Positions 37,089 to 42,603 of a stretch of 64,000 nucleotides of DNA are shown here, one piece after another; the stretch's first letter is position 1, and each line of letters begins with the position of its first letter. The translations under genes were made by a program, and so were the position numbers. Source of the stretch: an uncultured Paracoccaceae bacterium (lineage in GTDB: Bacteria; Pseudomonadota; Alphaproteobacteria; Rhodobacterales; Rhodobacteraceae); contig CALAXT010000072.1 of assembly GCA_937895435.1 (NCBI GenBank), forward strand, positions 62,001 to 126,000, read 5' to 3'. Below the pieces are notes generated by a model. That model was not told where the DNA came from. It did no database searches and worked only from the letters and a program-made list of their open reading frames with translations.

Positions 37089-38219
37089 CTAGCCGATCAA
37101 CCGGGCCGAAGTGTTCCCAGTTTCTTCATAATGGCGGCGCAGGCGCATCAACGCGATGCGCAACACGATCTTGCCCGAACGGGCCGACCAGCCCATACGC
37201 TGTTCGGCCTGTTCCATCCCTTCCAGAAAGCAGCAACACCGTAAAACCATATCGCCCAAACCCGGCCCCAAATCACGCAGCGCCGCCGCCACCCGGTCAC
37301 GCGCCGCACGCGGGCCCTCGGCAATGCCGTTATCGCTCGAAAAGCTGCCCCGATCACCCGCTGTCAAAAACCGATCCCAGTTTTGTGCAACGCGAGGCCC
37401 CATCTGTGCCAGCTCAAAGTCTTCGCGCAGCCGTTCTGCAGCGGCAACCATTTCAGCAGAAAGAAACGGTGTGCCATCTTTGTCTTTGCGCCGCGCCAAC
37501 AGTGCAATGGGCGATTCGGCCAGATTACAACGCAAACGCCGCCGTTCGGCATCTGACCCCTCTGATATTTCGCGTGCGCCCCAAATCCGATGTTGATCAC
37601 CAAAGTGGCTGGGGCTTTCCGCAAAGCCATCACGCTGATCGGTCAACATGCGCTTAAGCATGGCACGCCCGGCGGTGGTAATATCATACATCGAAACCCG
37701 CCCCGTGTGGCGGCAACTGATCCAATCTTTCAGCGCAAATGCCTGCGCAACTGGGCGGGCCAACACAGCCACACGCAGCGTCCGACCATCGGGCAAATTG
37801 CGCATAATAGCTGCCTTTTCCATGTCGGGGGCAATCACGAGAACCGAGCCCGGTTCCGCCAAACGCCGCAAGACACGCAGCGCCTCAGACAGAATAGTCT
37901 TTTCATCGGGAACAAGGTTTTTGGGGCGCAGAGGTGCAGACATGTGGGTGCTTTCCTTTTCATCATGCAGGGCGGTTGTTGGGCTGACATCACCGGTATC
38001 ACCGGGTTCAAGGCGGCTGAGCGCCTCATCAATCAGCGGATCCTCACGGCGATTTTCGAACCGGCGCACCTGTCGCAAGATGGTCGAGGCATGGCAGCCC
38101 TCGCGGCGCGCAAGCGCACGCAGCGATTGGCCCTGCAGGGTATAAGACAGGTAAAGCCGGGCGGCATCTGGCAGCCACGCAGGCAAACTGTCTGGACTGG
38201 TTAAAAGGGTGGCATTCAT
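37089..38219 (-). CDS. Helix-turn-helix protein with DUF6456-type C-terminal domain
   Basis: 376 residues. The N-terminus has a helix-turn-helix-like stretch (SLRALARREGCHASTILRQV, about 33-52). The middle part, near 130-200, has winged-helix character (ISCRHTGRVSMYDITTAGRAMLKRML). The C-terminal 150 residues match the DUF6456 pattern (ERLREDFELAQMGPRVAQNW and GPRAARDRV). This is a Rhodobacterales-type regulator of unknown target. GGAGG lies 13 nt before the ATG. It is divergent from the DUF6477 gene across a 217-bp region rich in symmetric sites. Confidence 0.8.
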   Translation of the reverse strand: MNATLLTSPDSLPAWLPDAARLYLSYTLQGQSLRALARREGCHASTILRQVRRFENRREDPLIDEALSRLEPGDTGDVSPTTALHDEKESTHMSAPLRPKNLVPDEKTILSEALRVLRRLAEPGSVLVIAPDMEKAAIMRNLPDGRTLRVAVLARPVAQAFALKDWISCRHTGRVSMYDITTAGRAMLKRMLTDQRDGFAESPSHFGDQHRIWGAREISEGSDAERRRLRCNLAESPIALLARRKDKDGTPFLSAEMVAAAERLREDFELAQMGPRVAQNWDRFLTAGDRGSFSSDNGIAEGPRAARDRVAAALRDLGPGLGDMVLRCCCFLEGMEQAEQRMGWSARSGKIVLRIALMRLRRHYEETGNTSARLIG

Positions 38220-38291
38220 TCACCACACGCCTCCTTGCGCATCGCAACCCTTCATGATCGCCTGGGCGTCATGCAACCTTTGGCGGTTATG

Positions 38292-38338
38292 GTTACCCGT
38301 TCGTTAAAATAAGCCGTTTGGAAACAATGCTTTCCAAA
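38292..38338. promoter_or_regulatory. CtrA-like box and 22-bp inverted repeat between DUF6456 and DUF6477 genes
   Basis: GTTAC-N6-GTTAA (38292-38307) is one base from the CtrA half-site pair TTAA-N7-TTAA. Ten bp on, TTTGGAAA-CAATGC-TTTCCAAA (38317-38338) is a perfect 8-bp inverted repeat, a typical dimer-binding site. Both lie in the divergent control region. Confidence 0.5.
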
Positions 38339-38436
38339 TCCTAAACGCGCCTCAACCCTGCGAACGCCGCGATGCAGCTTTCGGCAACACCCGTTTTGGT
38401 TGTGCAAGTATGGCGTGTCCCAGAATGGAGTGTGAC

Positions 38437-38730
38437 ATGCAAAACCCGATTGTTTCATTGCGCCAAATGCGCCGCCCAACACTTTTGATAAAGGCCGCAC
38501 GCCATGGCATCAGCACCTATCGCCGTGAAAAAGATCTGCGCCGCCTGACCCAATGCGACACCCCCCCAAAATCGGCCGAACACGCGCTGCAATTGCTGTT
38601 ATTGAAAGAAGAGGTGATCGAAGATATCCGCCGCGCCGGGGATGCGGGATATAGCGTGCGCCAACATGTCGCGATCATGATCGCCCTGATGGCTGAGGCG
38701 CGGCATATGCTGCGCGCAACACTGGTCTAG
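38437..38730 (+). CDS. DUF6477 family protein
   Basis: 97 residues from the ATG at 38437, preceded by GGAG; longer starts have no good ribosome site. The pattern ARHGISTYRREKDLRRL and the helical LLLLKEEVIEDIRRAGDAGYSVRQHVAIMIALMAEAR match a small family found mainly in the Rhodobacterales. Function unknown. A bidirectional-looking terminator follows at 38780. Confidence 0.75.
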   Translation: MQNPIVSLRQMRRPTLLIKAARHGISTYRREKDLRRLTQCDTPPKSAEHALQLLLLKEEVIEDIRRAGDAGYSVRQHVAIMIALMAEARHMLRATLV

Positions 38731-38834: not shown

Positions 38835-40376
38835 TCAGATAAACGCGTCAGGCAAAGCGGCCTTTTTGCGGGCCACATAATCGTTTAGCGCATCAGAAAT
38901 CGCTGGATCCATCGGGGGCTGCTGATAATCGGCCAATTGACGGGCCACCCGGGCGCTGGCCAGCGCTTGGGTATCCCGCGCGCCCTCTTCATCCCATGTT
39001 TCAAAGGGTTTGTAATCCAGCAAATCACTGCGCCAGAACGCGTCTTTGAAATTGGCCTGCGTATGGGCGCAGCCAAGATAGTGCCCACCCGGCCCAACCT
39101 CACGGATGGCGCCCATGGCTTGGGCATCAGCCGACATATCAATGCCGCGTGCCAGGTGATGCAACGCACCCAACTGATCGGCATCCATGACGAATTTCTC
39201 ATAAGATGAAACCAAACCACCTTCCAGCCAGCCGCAGGCGTGCAACATAAAGTTCACGCCCGCCAACAGCGCCATATTCAAGCTGTTGGCCGTTTCATAA
39301 GCGGCCTGCGCGTCGGGCAATTTTGAGCCACAAAACGCCCCCCCCGACCGATAGGGCAGCCCCATGCGCCGGGCCAACTGCCCCGCACCATAGGTGATAT
39401 GCGCGGCCTCTGGCGTGCCAAAGGTTGGCGCGCCCGAATTCATATCGATTGATGTCACAAACGCGCCAAAAATCACCGGTGCTCCCTTACGCACCAGTTG
39501 GCTATAGGCAACGCCGGCCAAAACCTCGGCCATCACCTGCGTAAGCGTCCCGGCGACCGACACAGGCGCCATCGCCCCCCCCACGATAAAAGGCGAGATG
39601 ATACAGGCCTGATTAGCCTTGGCGTAGACCTCCAGCGCGCCCATCATCACGTTGTCAAATGTCAGCGGCGAGTTGATATTGATCAACGAGGTCATCACTG
39701 TGTTCTGATCAACGAAATCGCTGCCAAACAAAAGCTTCGACATTTCGACCGAATCTTGTGCCCTGCTGGGTTCGGTGACGGAACCCATATAGGGTTTATC
39801 CGACAGCGTCATATGCGCCAGCAACATGTCCAGATGGCGCTTGTTTACAGGCACATCGGTCGGTTCACAGACAGTGCCCCCCGAATGATGCAGCCATTTC
39901 GACATATAGCCCAGTTTTACAAAATTCTGAAAATCAGCAATGGTTGCATAGCGCCGCCCACCGGCAGCATCACGCACAAAGGGGGGACCATAGACCGGGG
40001 CCAGCACCAGCGACCGGCCACCAATTTCAACATTGCGCTGCGGGTTGCGGGCGTGTTGAATGATACGACCGGGGGCCGTTGCGCACAATTGGCGGGCCAA
40101 TCCACGCGGAATACGCACCCGGTCCCCATGTACATCCGCGCCCGCTTCGCGCCACAGCGCAAGCGCGTCCGGATTTTCCGGGAAATTCACCCCGATTTCT
40201 TCCAAAACCGTATCGGCATTCCATTCAATGATGGAAAGCGCCTCATCGTTCAAAATCTCAAAGTTCGGAATGTTGCGCTCAATAAAACGTGCGCTTTCCA
40301 GACTGACGGCCGACCGTTCGGCCCGACGTGCCGCACCGCCACCGCCCCGTGCCCGACGCCCTGCTGCCTGATCCAT
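38835..40376 (-). CDS. Trimethylamine methyltransferase (MttB) superfamily protein, non-pyrrolysine type
   Basis: 513 residues from the ATG at 40376, with GGAG 9 nt upstream; a TTG start five codons earlier is possible. It matches MttB over its length (TVLEEIGVNF near 61-70, RNVEIGGRSLVLAPVYGPPF, SGGTVCEPTDVP). There is no in-frame amber codon, so it belongs to the non-pyrrolysine branch, in which a characterised member demethylates glycine betaine using a corrinoid protein. The N-terminal 30 residues are arginine/glycine-rich. No corrinoid protein or methyltransferase partner is adjacent, and the true substrate cannot be read here. Confidence 0.88.
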   Translation of the reverse strand: MDQAAGRRARGGGGAARRAERSAVSLESARFIERNIPNFEILNDEALSIIEWNADTVLEEIGVNFPENPDALALWREAGADVHGDRVRIPRGLARQLCATAPGRIIQHARNPQRNVEIGGRSLVLAPVYGPPFVRDAAGGRRYATIADFQNFVKLGYMSKWLHHSGGTVCEPTDVPVNKRHLDMLLAHMTLSDKPYMGSVTEPSRAQDSVEMSKLLFGSDFVDQNTVMTSLININSPLTFDNVMMGALEVYAKANQACIISPFIVGGAMAPVSVAGTLTQVMAEVLAGVAYSQLVRKGAPVIFGAFVTSIDMNSGAPTFGTPEAAHITYGAGQLARRMGLPYRSGGAFCGSKLPDAQAAYETANSLNMALLAGVNFMLHACGWLEGGLVSSYEKFVMDADQLGALHHLARGIDMSADAQAMGAIREVGPGGHYLGCAHTQANFKDAFWRSDLLDYKPFETWDEEGARDTQALASARVARQLADYQQPPMDPAISDALNDYVARKKAALPDAFI

Positions 40377-40401
40377 GGTTTCTTGCTCCAAATTTCACCT
40401 G

Positions 40402-40490
40402 AGATTGCGCATGTCATAGGCCCTGTGTGCGCCAGACCCGGTGCAGATTGCGCCCTCTGACGGCGCAAAACGACATCTTTGCGCAAAGAT
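40402..40490 (-). promoter_or_regulatory. Cluster of TTGCGC half-sites upstream of the mttB-like gene
   Basis: ATCTTTGCGCAAAGAT (40475-40490) is a perfect 16-bp palindrome. TTGCGCC-N7-GGCGCAA (40448-40468) is a second inverted repeat, and AGATTGCGC occurs at 40402-40410 and again at 40445-40453. All share the TTGCGC core. The cluster begins 26 bp before the ATG. It may also act as the lpxB terminator, because the palindrome can form a 6-bp stem with a 4-nt loop. Confidence 0.55.
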
Positions 40491-40528
40491 CGCAGCCACC
40501 GCCCAATCCGCTCAGCTTTGCCCTGTGA

Positions 40529-41698
40529 TCAACCCCGTTTTGCCAGATAGCGCAGCACCGATTGCGCCGCCCGCAAGCCCGGTGGCGGACCGCCCCGGCC
40601 AAGACGTTCCATCGTCAGCGCCATCGCCCGCAATTGCGCACCCCGCCCTTCCCCACCCGGCAGCACCGCCATCAGCGCATCAGCCATCGGCCCCGGTCTG
40701 CAGGCAGCGCCAATAAACTCGGGCACAGCTGTCGTTTGTGACACCAAATTGACCAGCGTCACACTGGGCACCCGGATCATCCGTGCCATGATCTGGCGGC
40801 TGAGCCACGCCATATCATATCCAATAACCATCGGCACATCATTGGCCGCCAATTCTAACGACACCGTCCCCGATGCAGCCAAAGCCACATCTGCAGCCGC
40901 AAAGGCCGCGCGCTTAGCCCACGCATCATTTGGGTCCAACAAAACCGGCTGGCCCGGCCAATCGCGACACAGCTCCGCCACCAACCCTGCCTGTGCCAGC
41001 ACCCGAGGCACCACCACCCGCATCTGCGGCACCCGTTCAGCCACCTGCGCCAAGGTCTGGCCAAATCGGGGCGACAGCCGCGTCACCTCGCCCCGGCGCG
41101 ATCCGGGCAATGCCATGACCAAGGGCGCATCAAGTGCAATTCCATGGCTGGCGCGAAACTCTTGGGCCGCAGCAATATTGGCGCGAGGTTCCGCCACCAC
41201 GGGGTGGCCAACAAAATCGCAGCTCATGCCTGCGCCTGTCATAAAGGGCGGCTCAAACGGCAAAAGCGCCAGCACATGGTCAATCACCCGCGCCATCCGC
41301 TGCGCCCGTTTTGGCCGCCATGCCCAGACACTTGGAGCAACATAATGGATGAACGCGGGCCGCAGCGCCGCAGGCATGCGTGCTTTGACACCAGCCGATA
41401 CCCGCAAACAAAAATCAGGGCTGTCTATCGTGATCAGCGCATCTGGCGCGGCTTGGGAGACATCTGCCACCGCCGTGGCCAGTCTGCGGCGCAGCATCGC
41501 ATAGCGCGGCACCACCTCAGCCAGCCCCATTACTGACAAATCTGCCATGTCAAACAGGCTGTGCAAGCCCTCAGCCTGCATAGCTGGGCCACCAATCCCT
41601 TGAAAGGTTACATCTGGGCATAGGCTGCGCAGCCCCACCATCAGCGCGGCCCCAAGCTTGTCGCCAGACGGCTCACCAGCAATCAGATAGATCTTCAT
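40529..41698 (-). CDS. lpxB: Lipid-A-disaccharide synthase
   Basis: 389 residues from the ATG at 41698, overlapping the lpxI stop by 4 nt. GT-B family signatures are AGEPSGDKLGAALM at the N-terminus, YVAPSVWAW in the middle and LPGSRRGEV. It joins UDP-2,3-diacylglucosamine and lipid X. Last gene of the envelope run; the TTGCGC cluster lies downstream. Confidence 0.95.
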   Translation of the reverse strand: MKIYLIAGEPSGDKLGAALMVGLRSLCPDVTFQGIGGPAMQAEGLHSLFDMADLSVMGLAEVVPRYAMLRRRLATAVADVSQAAPDALITIDSPDFCLRVSAGVKARMPAALRPAFIHYVAPSVWAWRPKRAQRMARVIDHVLALLPFEPPFMTGAGMSCDFVGHPVVAEPRANIAAAQEFRASHGIALDAPLVMALPGSRRGEVTRLSPRFGQTLAQVAERVPQMRVVVPRVLAQAGLVAELCRDWPGQPVLLDPNDAWAKRAAFAAADVALAASGTVSLELAANDVPMVIGYDMAWLSRQIMARMIRVPSVTLVNLVSQTTAVPEFIGAACRPGPMADALMAVLPGGEGRGAQLRAMALTMERLGRGGPPPGLRAAQSVLRYLAKRG

Positions 41699-42603
41699 TC
41701 GGGGGACAAAGCGTCCGACCATGACCACAGGAACAGCCCCAGATCATCGGCCAGCGCAATCATTTCAGCCCGGTCCAACAGCATGACCGACCCCGCCCGA
41801 AACGCCAATCCGCCCAAGCCAGCCACAGCCACCTCACGCAGGGTTTGCGGCCCAAGCGCTGGCAGATCAATCCTGCGATCTTGACCAGGCTTGGCTGCTT
41901 TAAAACAGACGCCACGCGCGCCATTTGGGTCAGGGCGCGGATCGGGCATCTGGCCAAGCTGGCGCCCTGCCTCGGCCAACATCGCATCCGTGCCACCAAT
42001 TGTTTCTACCGCCAAACAGAGGCCCTGCGCCACAACCGCACCTTGCCCCACATCAACCGCCCCAAGGGCGGCCACAATCTGTGCCGCACGCGCCACATCA
42101 GCCGCGTCTTGGTCCAGTGGCTGCACCCGCCCCAGCACCTCGGGTGCGGGCACCAGATCAGGGGCGATTTGATCGGCTCCCACCACAGCAAACCCGTCTT
42201 CTTCAAAAATTGCGATCACTTCGCGCAACGTGGCATCATCGCCGCTTTGCATCGCACGCAACAAACGTGGCACCATCGTGGCTGTGAGTGGGTCAAAACG
42301 CTCTGGGTCCAGACGCGGGCGGCGCACAGCACCTGCAAAAACGATCTGGGTCACACCCAGATCATGCAGACGGTCCATAAAAAGTGCCAGCCGTTCCACC
42401 TGAAACCGCTGCACTGTGCGCCCCTCTGCGGCAACGGGAAAGCCCTCCATTTCGGCTAGAAGATACGGCTGGTCCTCGGCCTCTAACGCGCGCACCAGCA
42501 GCATGGGCAATCGGCCCGTTCCTGCGATAATGCCAATCTTTCCCGGGTCTTGATCTGATGCGGCTGTGCTTTGATCTTGACCGGCCATCTGGTCACCGTT
42601 CAT
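41695..42603 (-). CDS. lpxI: UDP-2,3-diacylglucosamine pyrophosphatase LpxI
   Basis: 302 residues of the DUF1009/LpxI family (IGIIAGTGRLPMLL, TQIVFAGAVRRP, GTDAML). LpxI replaces LpxH in alphaproteobacteria and gives lipid X for LpxB. Overlaps lpxA and lpxB by 4 nt each, which fixes the start. Confidence 0.94.
   Translation of the reverse strand: MNGDQMAGQDQSTAASDQDPGKIGIIAGTGRLPMLLVRALEAEDQPYLLAEMEGFPVAAEGRTVQRFQVERLALFMDRLHDLGVTQIVFAGAVRRPRLDPERFDPLTATMVPRLLRAMQSGDDATLREVIAIFEEDGFAVVGADQIAPDLVPAPEVLGRVQPLDQDAADVARAAQIVAALGAVDVGQGAVVAQGLCLAVETIGGTDAMLAEAGRQLGQMPDPRPDPNGARGVCFKAAKPGQDRRIDLPALGPQTLREVAVAGLGGLAFRAGSVMLLDRAEMIALADDLGLFLWSWSDALSPE

Follow-up and report, generated by a model that had tools for sequence, protein, structure and literature searches.

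A conserved direct-repeat element before a probable glycine betaine methyltransferase gene of Rhodobacteraceae, and a candidate GbdR-like regulator

Glycine betaine is an abundant marine osmolyte. At araI1-I2 of Escherichia coli, AraC has two direct half-sites immediately upstream of the promoter, an arrangement from which the case described here differs in family branch, ligand and half-site.

Closer to our locus are CdhR, GbdR, SouR and ArgR of Pseudomonas aeruginosa, AraC-family regulators of carnitine and betaine catabolism (PMC5806209). The accessible text of that paper gives the CdhR half-site as GGTCGC with a 15-bp spacer, reports class I activation and calls the site 'very similar' to those of GbdR, SouR and ArgR (PMC5806209). 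These operators resemble ours in being direct repeats of GTCG-cored half-sites, spaced by some two helical turns and lying upstream of the promoter. Ours differ in their period, 20 bp at mtgB and 21 bp at mtgC, in an AT-rich tail after GTCGn, and in having corrinoid methyltransferase genes as targets.

On the enzyme side, the nearest described system is the glycine betaine demethylase/split methionine synthase MtgBCDE of Ruegeria pomeroyi, the MtgBCD route having been described in 2025 (PMC12478193). PF06253 proteins (MtgB, of which there are two, SPO2108 and SPO2134) and the corrinoid protein MtgC demethylate glycine betaine; methionine synthesis likewise draws on MtgC, together with MtgD, and the genes lie apart from one another in the genome (PMC12478193). 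Our case shares the PF06253 MtgB, the B12-binding MtgC and the unlinked genes. The R. pomeroyi study measured proteins, finding MtgB and MtgC more abundant on glycine betaine, and its accessible text names no regulator, operator or switch (PMC12478193). R. pomeroyi, which belongs to the same bacterial group, also has TmaR, an AraC-type protein that regulates genes for methylated amines and binds promoters directly (PMC13390433). It differs in that it activates trimethylamine catabolism, the tmm/tdm/dmm/gma/mgd cluster, and does not bind betB; the word "motif" is absent from the accessible main text of that paper (PMC13390433).

Here we analysed a stretch of 64,000 nucleotides from an uncultured Paracoccaceae bacterium (the window, along which positions are counted). 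As an array of TTGCGC sites, the aspect singled out by an earlier note, the locus is ordinary; as what appears to be a conserved GbdR-class operator of a corrinoid betaine-demethylation system, it is moderately interesting. Our best explanation, with a probability of about 0.7, is that the stretch is an activator-dependent mtgB promoter controlled by a GbdR-like regulator at two direct-repeat half-sites. Through the conserved site, an activator that senses betaine probably turns on the gene of a glycine-betaine-breakdown enzyme.

The methyltransferase gene and its neighbours

The features of the gene and its promoter are as follows.

38835..40376, minus strand: mttB-family gene, probably mtgB (glycine betaine:corrinoid methyltransferase); PF06253, E=2e-235
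40405..40407, minus strand: predicted start-site region CAA, with +1 at about 40406
40413..40418, minus strand: -10-like box TATGAC, at a conserved distance
40446..40476, minus strand: conserved 31-bp bipartite operator ATGTCGTTTTGCGCCGTCAGAGGGCGCAATC, from the alignment of the window with 80 relatives
40447..40454, minus strand: proximal half-site GGCGCAAT, 20 bp from the distal one
40467..40474, minus strand: distal half-site GTCGTTTT; TGTCG in 81/81, TTT nearly invariant
40529..41728, minus strand: lpxB (PF02684)

The gene starts at an ATG at 40376, with GGAG nine bases before it, or at an alternative TTG at 40391 (both on the minus strand), and encodes a 518-aa open frame with no in-frame amber. 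Its product scores 257 bits on TIGR02369, the pyrrolysine TMA equivalog, for which 525 are needed. The protein has the sequence features of MtgB, being a PF06253 member without an in-frame amber and outside the TMA equivalog, and we take the role of MtgB from PMC12478193. By association with an mtgC-like gene elsewhere in the genome and with a gene cluster in a genome of another family (G025, below), it is probably mtgB, the glycine-betaine methyltransferase gene; "glycine-betaine (MtgB-type)" describes it better than the "methylamine-type" of the earlier note. Of the 41 genomes searched, 27 encode relatives of the protein. A weak Rfam match to PYLIS_3 lies inside the gene at 39236-39335 (minus strand; 27.5 bits, gathering 38), in a frame without amber.

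In 69 of 80 relatives, guaA lies divergently upstream of mttB. The window has a synteny break at 40392-40528, where guaA is missing and lpxB, found near mttB in none of the 80 relatives, takes its place. Despite this replacement the operator, the -10 box and their distances to mttB are intact. Since the element stays with mttB when guaA is swapped for lpxB, it belongs to mttB and not to guaA.

Downstream of mttB, 68/80 relatives carry a gene for a DUF6456 protein with an HTH region; in the window (37089-38730), a DUF6477 gene on the other strand lies between it and mttB. We set the DUF6456 protein aside as a candidate for the regulator, as it was not found nearby in 12/80 relatives (some of them on cut contigs), whereas the site is present in all.

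The conserved bipartite element

Our alignment used the closest 80 of 594 confirmed stretches, all from named genomes, so the set is biased towards near relatives; some of these loci appear identical to whole-genome contigs (for example, L101 and G019, or L103 and G021). The window and all 80 named Rhodobacteraceae relatives have in common the element ATGTCG[CGT]TTT-N12-GnCGnWWW, and the consensus of the 81 promoters reads A-TGTCG-n-TTT, 12 free bases, G-n-CG-n-WWW-C. The architecture is that of direct-repeat half-sites 20 bp apart, followed at a fixed distance by a -10-like box and a +1-like CA. The search seed inflates the columns of the left half-site; the right half-site, a third site and the start region all lie outside it. 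At its fixed spacing, the right half has G in 79/81, C in 78/81 and G in 78/81 promoters. A seed score of at least 9 was reached by 76/80 promoters, compared with 0-1 in five control regions given the same procedure (72-80 loci), and GnCG stands at +20 in 77/80 promoters, compared with 0-16 in the five control regions (72-80 loci). The flanking columns are nearly random and carry little information, which argues that the conservation of the element reflects more than mere recent ancestry.

Towards the gene, alignment position 60, in the -10-like box, is A in 73/81 promoters, and in the predicted start-site region A stands at position 71 in 61/81 and at position 72 in 56/81. A sigma-70 site was not found in the window promoter, where the -10-like box is without the usual final T. 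Away from the gene, a third GTCG occurs exactly 22 bp further up in 21/81 promoters, compared with a total of four for 15 other spacings (15-30); it was not found in the window promoter.

The window operator scores 34.0 on the position weight matrix (33.2 when it is excluded from the matrix), and the next best site in the 64 kb scores 7.5. Among mttB promoters from whole genomes of the same family (21 with upstream DNA), 15 score at least 19 and six lower (L023, L029, L030, L034, L035 and L039). In L029, L030 and L034, ATGTCG is kept and the spacing to the right half-site seems altered, perhaps through operator drift. No such site precedes the four MttB paralogues of the home genome or the mtgB gene of G025. 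Across the home genome, the strict operator matches at mttB and at one further place, in an open frame, and with one mismatch it gives 7 hits versus 24 control hits; over both strands of 25 genomes there are 13 exact hits versus 8 control hits. No further member stands out at this stringency. We found no description of the operator in the open-licence literature, the partial coverage of which makes this weak evidence of absence.

Sites before mtgC and a candidate regulator

The search for mtgC was given 9 of the 41 genomes, each of which has one B12-binding_2 protein over the cut-off; for that of the home genome, the best NCBIfam match is an MtgC model, at 195.7 bits against a cut-off of 370. 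Upstream of mtgC, the pattern GnCG-N17-GTCG is present in 9/9 genomes and the strict GTCG-N17-GTCG in 8/9, the backgrounds being 0.08 and 0.017 per 220 nt, respectively. The half-sites are 21 bp apart and lie 91-117 bp before the start, and the nine promoters show no clear alignment of a -10 box.

The home genome encodes five HTH_18 proteins, and for four of them the match to the GbdR model covers most of the protein. The best of them (G000:C3:2804-3805) reaches 381.9 bits on NCBIfam NF052371 (GbdR) over residues 8-324, and its three paralogues 198-226 bits. Because it falls below the equivalog cut-off of 480 bits, we call it GbdR-like and do not file it as GbdR. Its domains are those of GbdR, a PF01965 (DJ-1/PfpI) sensor with PF12833 and PF00165 (AraC-type HTH), and the operators, with direct GTCG half-sites at 20 and 21 bp, agree with the roughly 21-bp arrangement of the GbdR/CdhR class. 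In G025, a homologue 45% identical to the candidate is flanked by dmgdh-mtgB, where dmgdh is a dimethylglycine-dehydrogenase-like gene, and by mtgC-DUF1638-metF-mtgD, where mtgD is a pterin-binding gene. Several TGTCG repeats, spaced by about two turns, lie there between the regulator gene and mtgC.

With minimum identities of 66% for mttB and 58% for the regulator, the two are either both present or both absent in 22 of the home family's 25 genomes (both in 21, neither in G023). The discordant genomes are G008 and G012, with mttB only, and G022, with the regulator and no close mttB. The neighbour of the regulator gene, aroF, is absent in G008 and G012 and present in G011 and G023. That G008 and G012 also lack aroF suggests that the regulator locus is unassembled in these two genomes; loss is possible as well.

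Regulators of the DJ-1/AraC type also occur within about 10 kb of MttB-superfamily genes at G025:C90 (L230), G008:C303, G007:C3, G001:C2 and G004:C727. A second such regulator of the home genome (L177, G000:C62) adjoins a 3-hydroxyacyl-CoA dehydrogenase-like gene, which may be carnitine dehydrogenase.

In the mechanism that we propose, the GbdR-like protein, with its DJ-1/PfpI sensor and AraC-type HTH, would bind GTCGTTTT and GGCGCAAT, most likely as a dimer, with the half-sites at about -68 and -48 relative to the predicted start. A betaine-pathway metabolite would be sensed, and the regulator would then bring RNA polymerase to the promoter, where a -10 can be recognised and a -35 box is absent; a -10 without a -35 gives the picture of an activator-dependent promoter. 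We infer that it is this regulator that binds here, that it has such an inducer and that it activates rather than represses. Given the similar half-sites before mtgC, the methyltransferase and the corrinoid protein would be co-induced even though their genes are scattered.

It is a tentative idea, to which we give slightly less than even odds, that Rhodobacteraceae have rewired a GbdR-like betaine sensor, which would now serve the corrinoid MtgBC system in place of the oxidative betaine route. If so, scattered promoters would be held together only by the GTCG direct-repeat operator. Part of the cell's methionine-synthase capacity would then be set by an activator that senses betaine, since the split methionine synthase has MtgC at its core as well. 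With a defined operator, two targets and a candidate regulator, it becomes possible to test directly how a major betaine-demethylation route is induced and how this connects with methionine synthesis.

Competing readings and the TTGCGC array

The same operator and activator-type promoter might serve another regulator, whether a different AraC-type protein or one of an unrelated direct-repeat family. This is unlikely, if well short of negligible. The candidate is assigned to the site from sequence, and G012 has a near-perfect site (34.8) and only two HTH_18 proteins, neither of them an orthologue of the candidate. Furthermore, no strong site was found at the regulator genes (35 loci scanned; best 14.2, at L184). 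Against this stand the fit of half-site and spacing to the GbdR/CdhR class, the GbdR score of 382 versus 198-226 for the paralogues, the G025 gene cluster, and the aroF neighbour missing in G012 and G008. The conserved stretch might instead be a short upstream ORF (ATG TCG..., about 20 codons) encoding a leader peptide, since ATG stands at its start in 72/81 promoters and in 34/81, the window included, a frame of 20 or 19 codons terminates at the TAA-like box. However, 20/81 frames meet a stop at codon 17 or earlier, and positions 6 and 9, which are third codon positions, are invariant or nearly so while position 7, a first codon position, varies, the reverse of coding constraint. We rejected the leader peptide on these two grounds and consider it very improbable.

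The remaining alternatives concern the repeats with which the earlier note had begun, namely five TTGCGC/GCGCAA cores forming a palindrome, an inverted repeat and a direct repeat, read as sites of a cooperative regulator. The repeats are all present, and all fall between the lpxB stop and the mttB start. The cores start at 40405(+), 40448(+), 40463(-), 40479(+) and 40481(-) and span 40405-40486 (82 bp), and the 9-bp direct repeat AGATTGCGC occupies 40402-40410 and 40445-40453. The two symmetric features are:

40448..40468, no strand assigned: 7-N7-7 inverted repeat TTGCGCC-N7-GGCGCAA (here TTGCGCC-CTCTGAC-GGCGCAA), an incidental overlap with the operator
40475..40490, no strand assigned: 16-bp palindrome ATCTTTGCGCAAAGAT, unconserved and probably due to chance

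A regulator binding TTGCGC and acting cooperatively on palindrome and array would draw on the density of cores in this single promoter. At least five cores within 86 bp occurred in 0, 4 and 1 of 100 Markov windows (order 2, 3 and 5), and only two hexamer families cluster as densely in the window, the other being a C-run. TTGCGC is slightly enriched in the window (158 versus 132 expected), and for a word picked after the cluster had been seen, the core density is mildly unusual. Perfect palindromes of at least 16 bp number one, against 1.09 expected from base composition. TTGCGC is missing from the 300 bp upstream of the gene in 43 of the 80 orthologous promoters; it occurs once in 23, twice in 12, three times in one and four times in one. 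TTGCGCAA is present in one of the 80 and absent in 79. Conservation in orthologous promoters was the test that the earlier note had set itself beforehand, and with the array not conserved in them its TTGCGC reading fails. Furthermore, 27 of the 29 copies of TTTGCGCAAA in the home genome lie inside long open frames, and after pattern searches and inspection of all 29 core sites we rejected a TTGCGC regulon. We regard such a regulator as extremely unlikely. The earlier note had also named, as a possibility counting against itself, that the palindrome serves as the lpxB terminator. The palindrome does lie 39-54 bp past the lpxB stop, but no terminator-like site was found, the fold is no better than that of shuffles (z 0.43), and the intergenic region has no Rfam match. 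We therefore rejected a terminator or a part of an RNA element, which has very little probability.

What holds of the earlier proposal is that a regulatory site for the MttB-family gene exists, is built of repeated half-sites and is deeply conserved; the unit recognised is not TTGCGC. Nor is it an inverted or palindromic one, the conserved unit being the direct repeat GTCGnTTT / GnCGnWWW of the proposed GbdR-class operator. The noted repeats are mostly chance, yet superimposed on a real control site, and the case illustrates that a motif array with the look of chance can point to a genuine site of another kind. The 7-N7-7 repeat overlaps the conserved operator by accident, and the core at 40405 coincides with the predicted start-site region.
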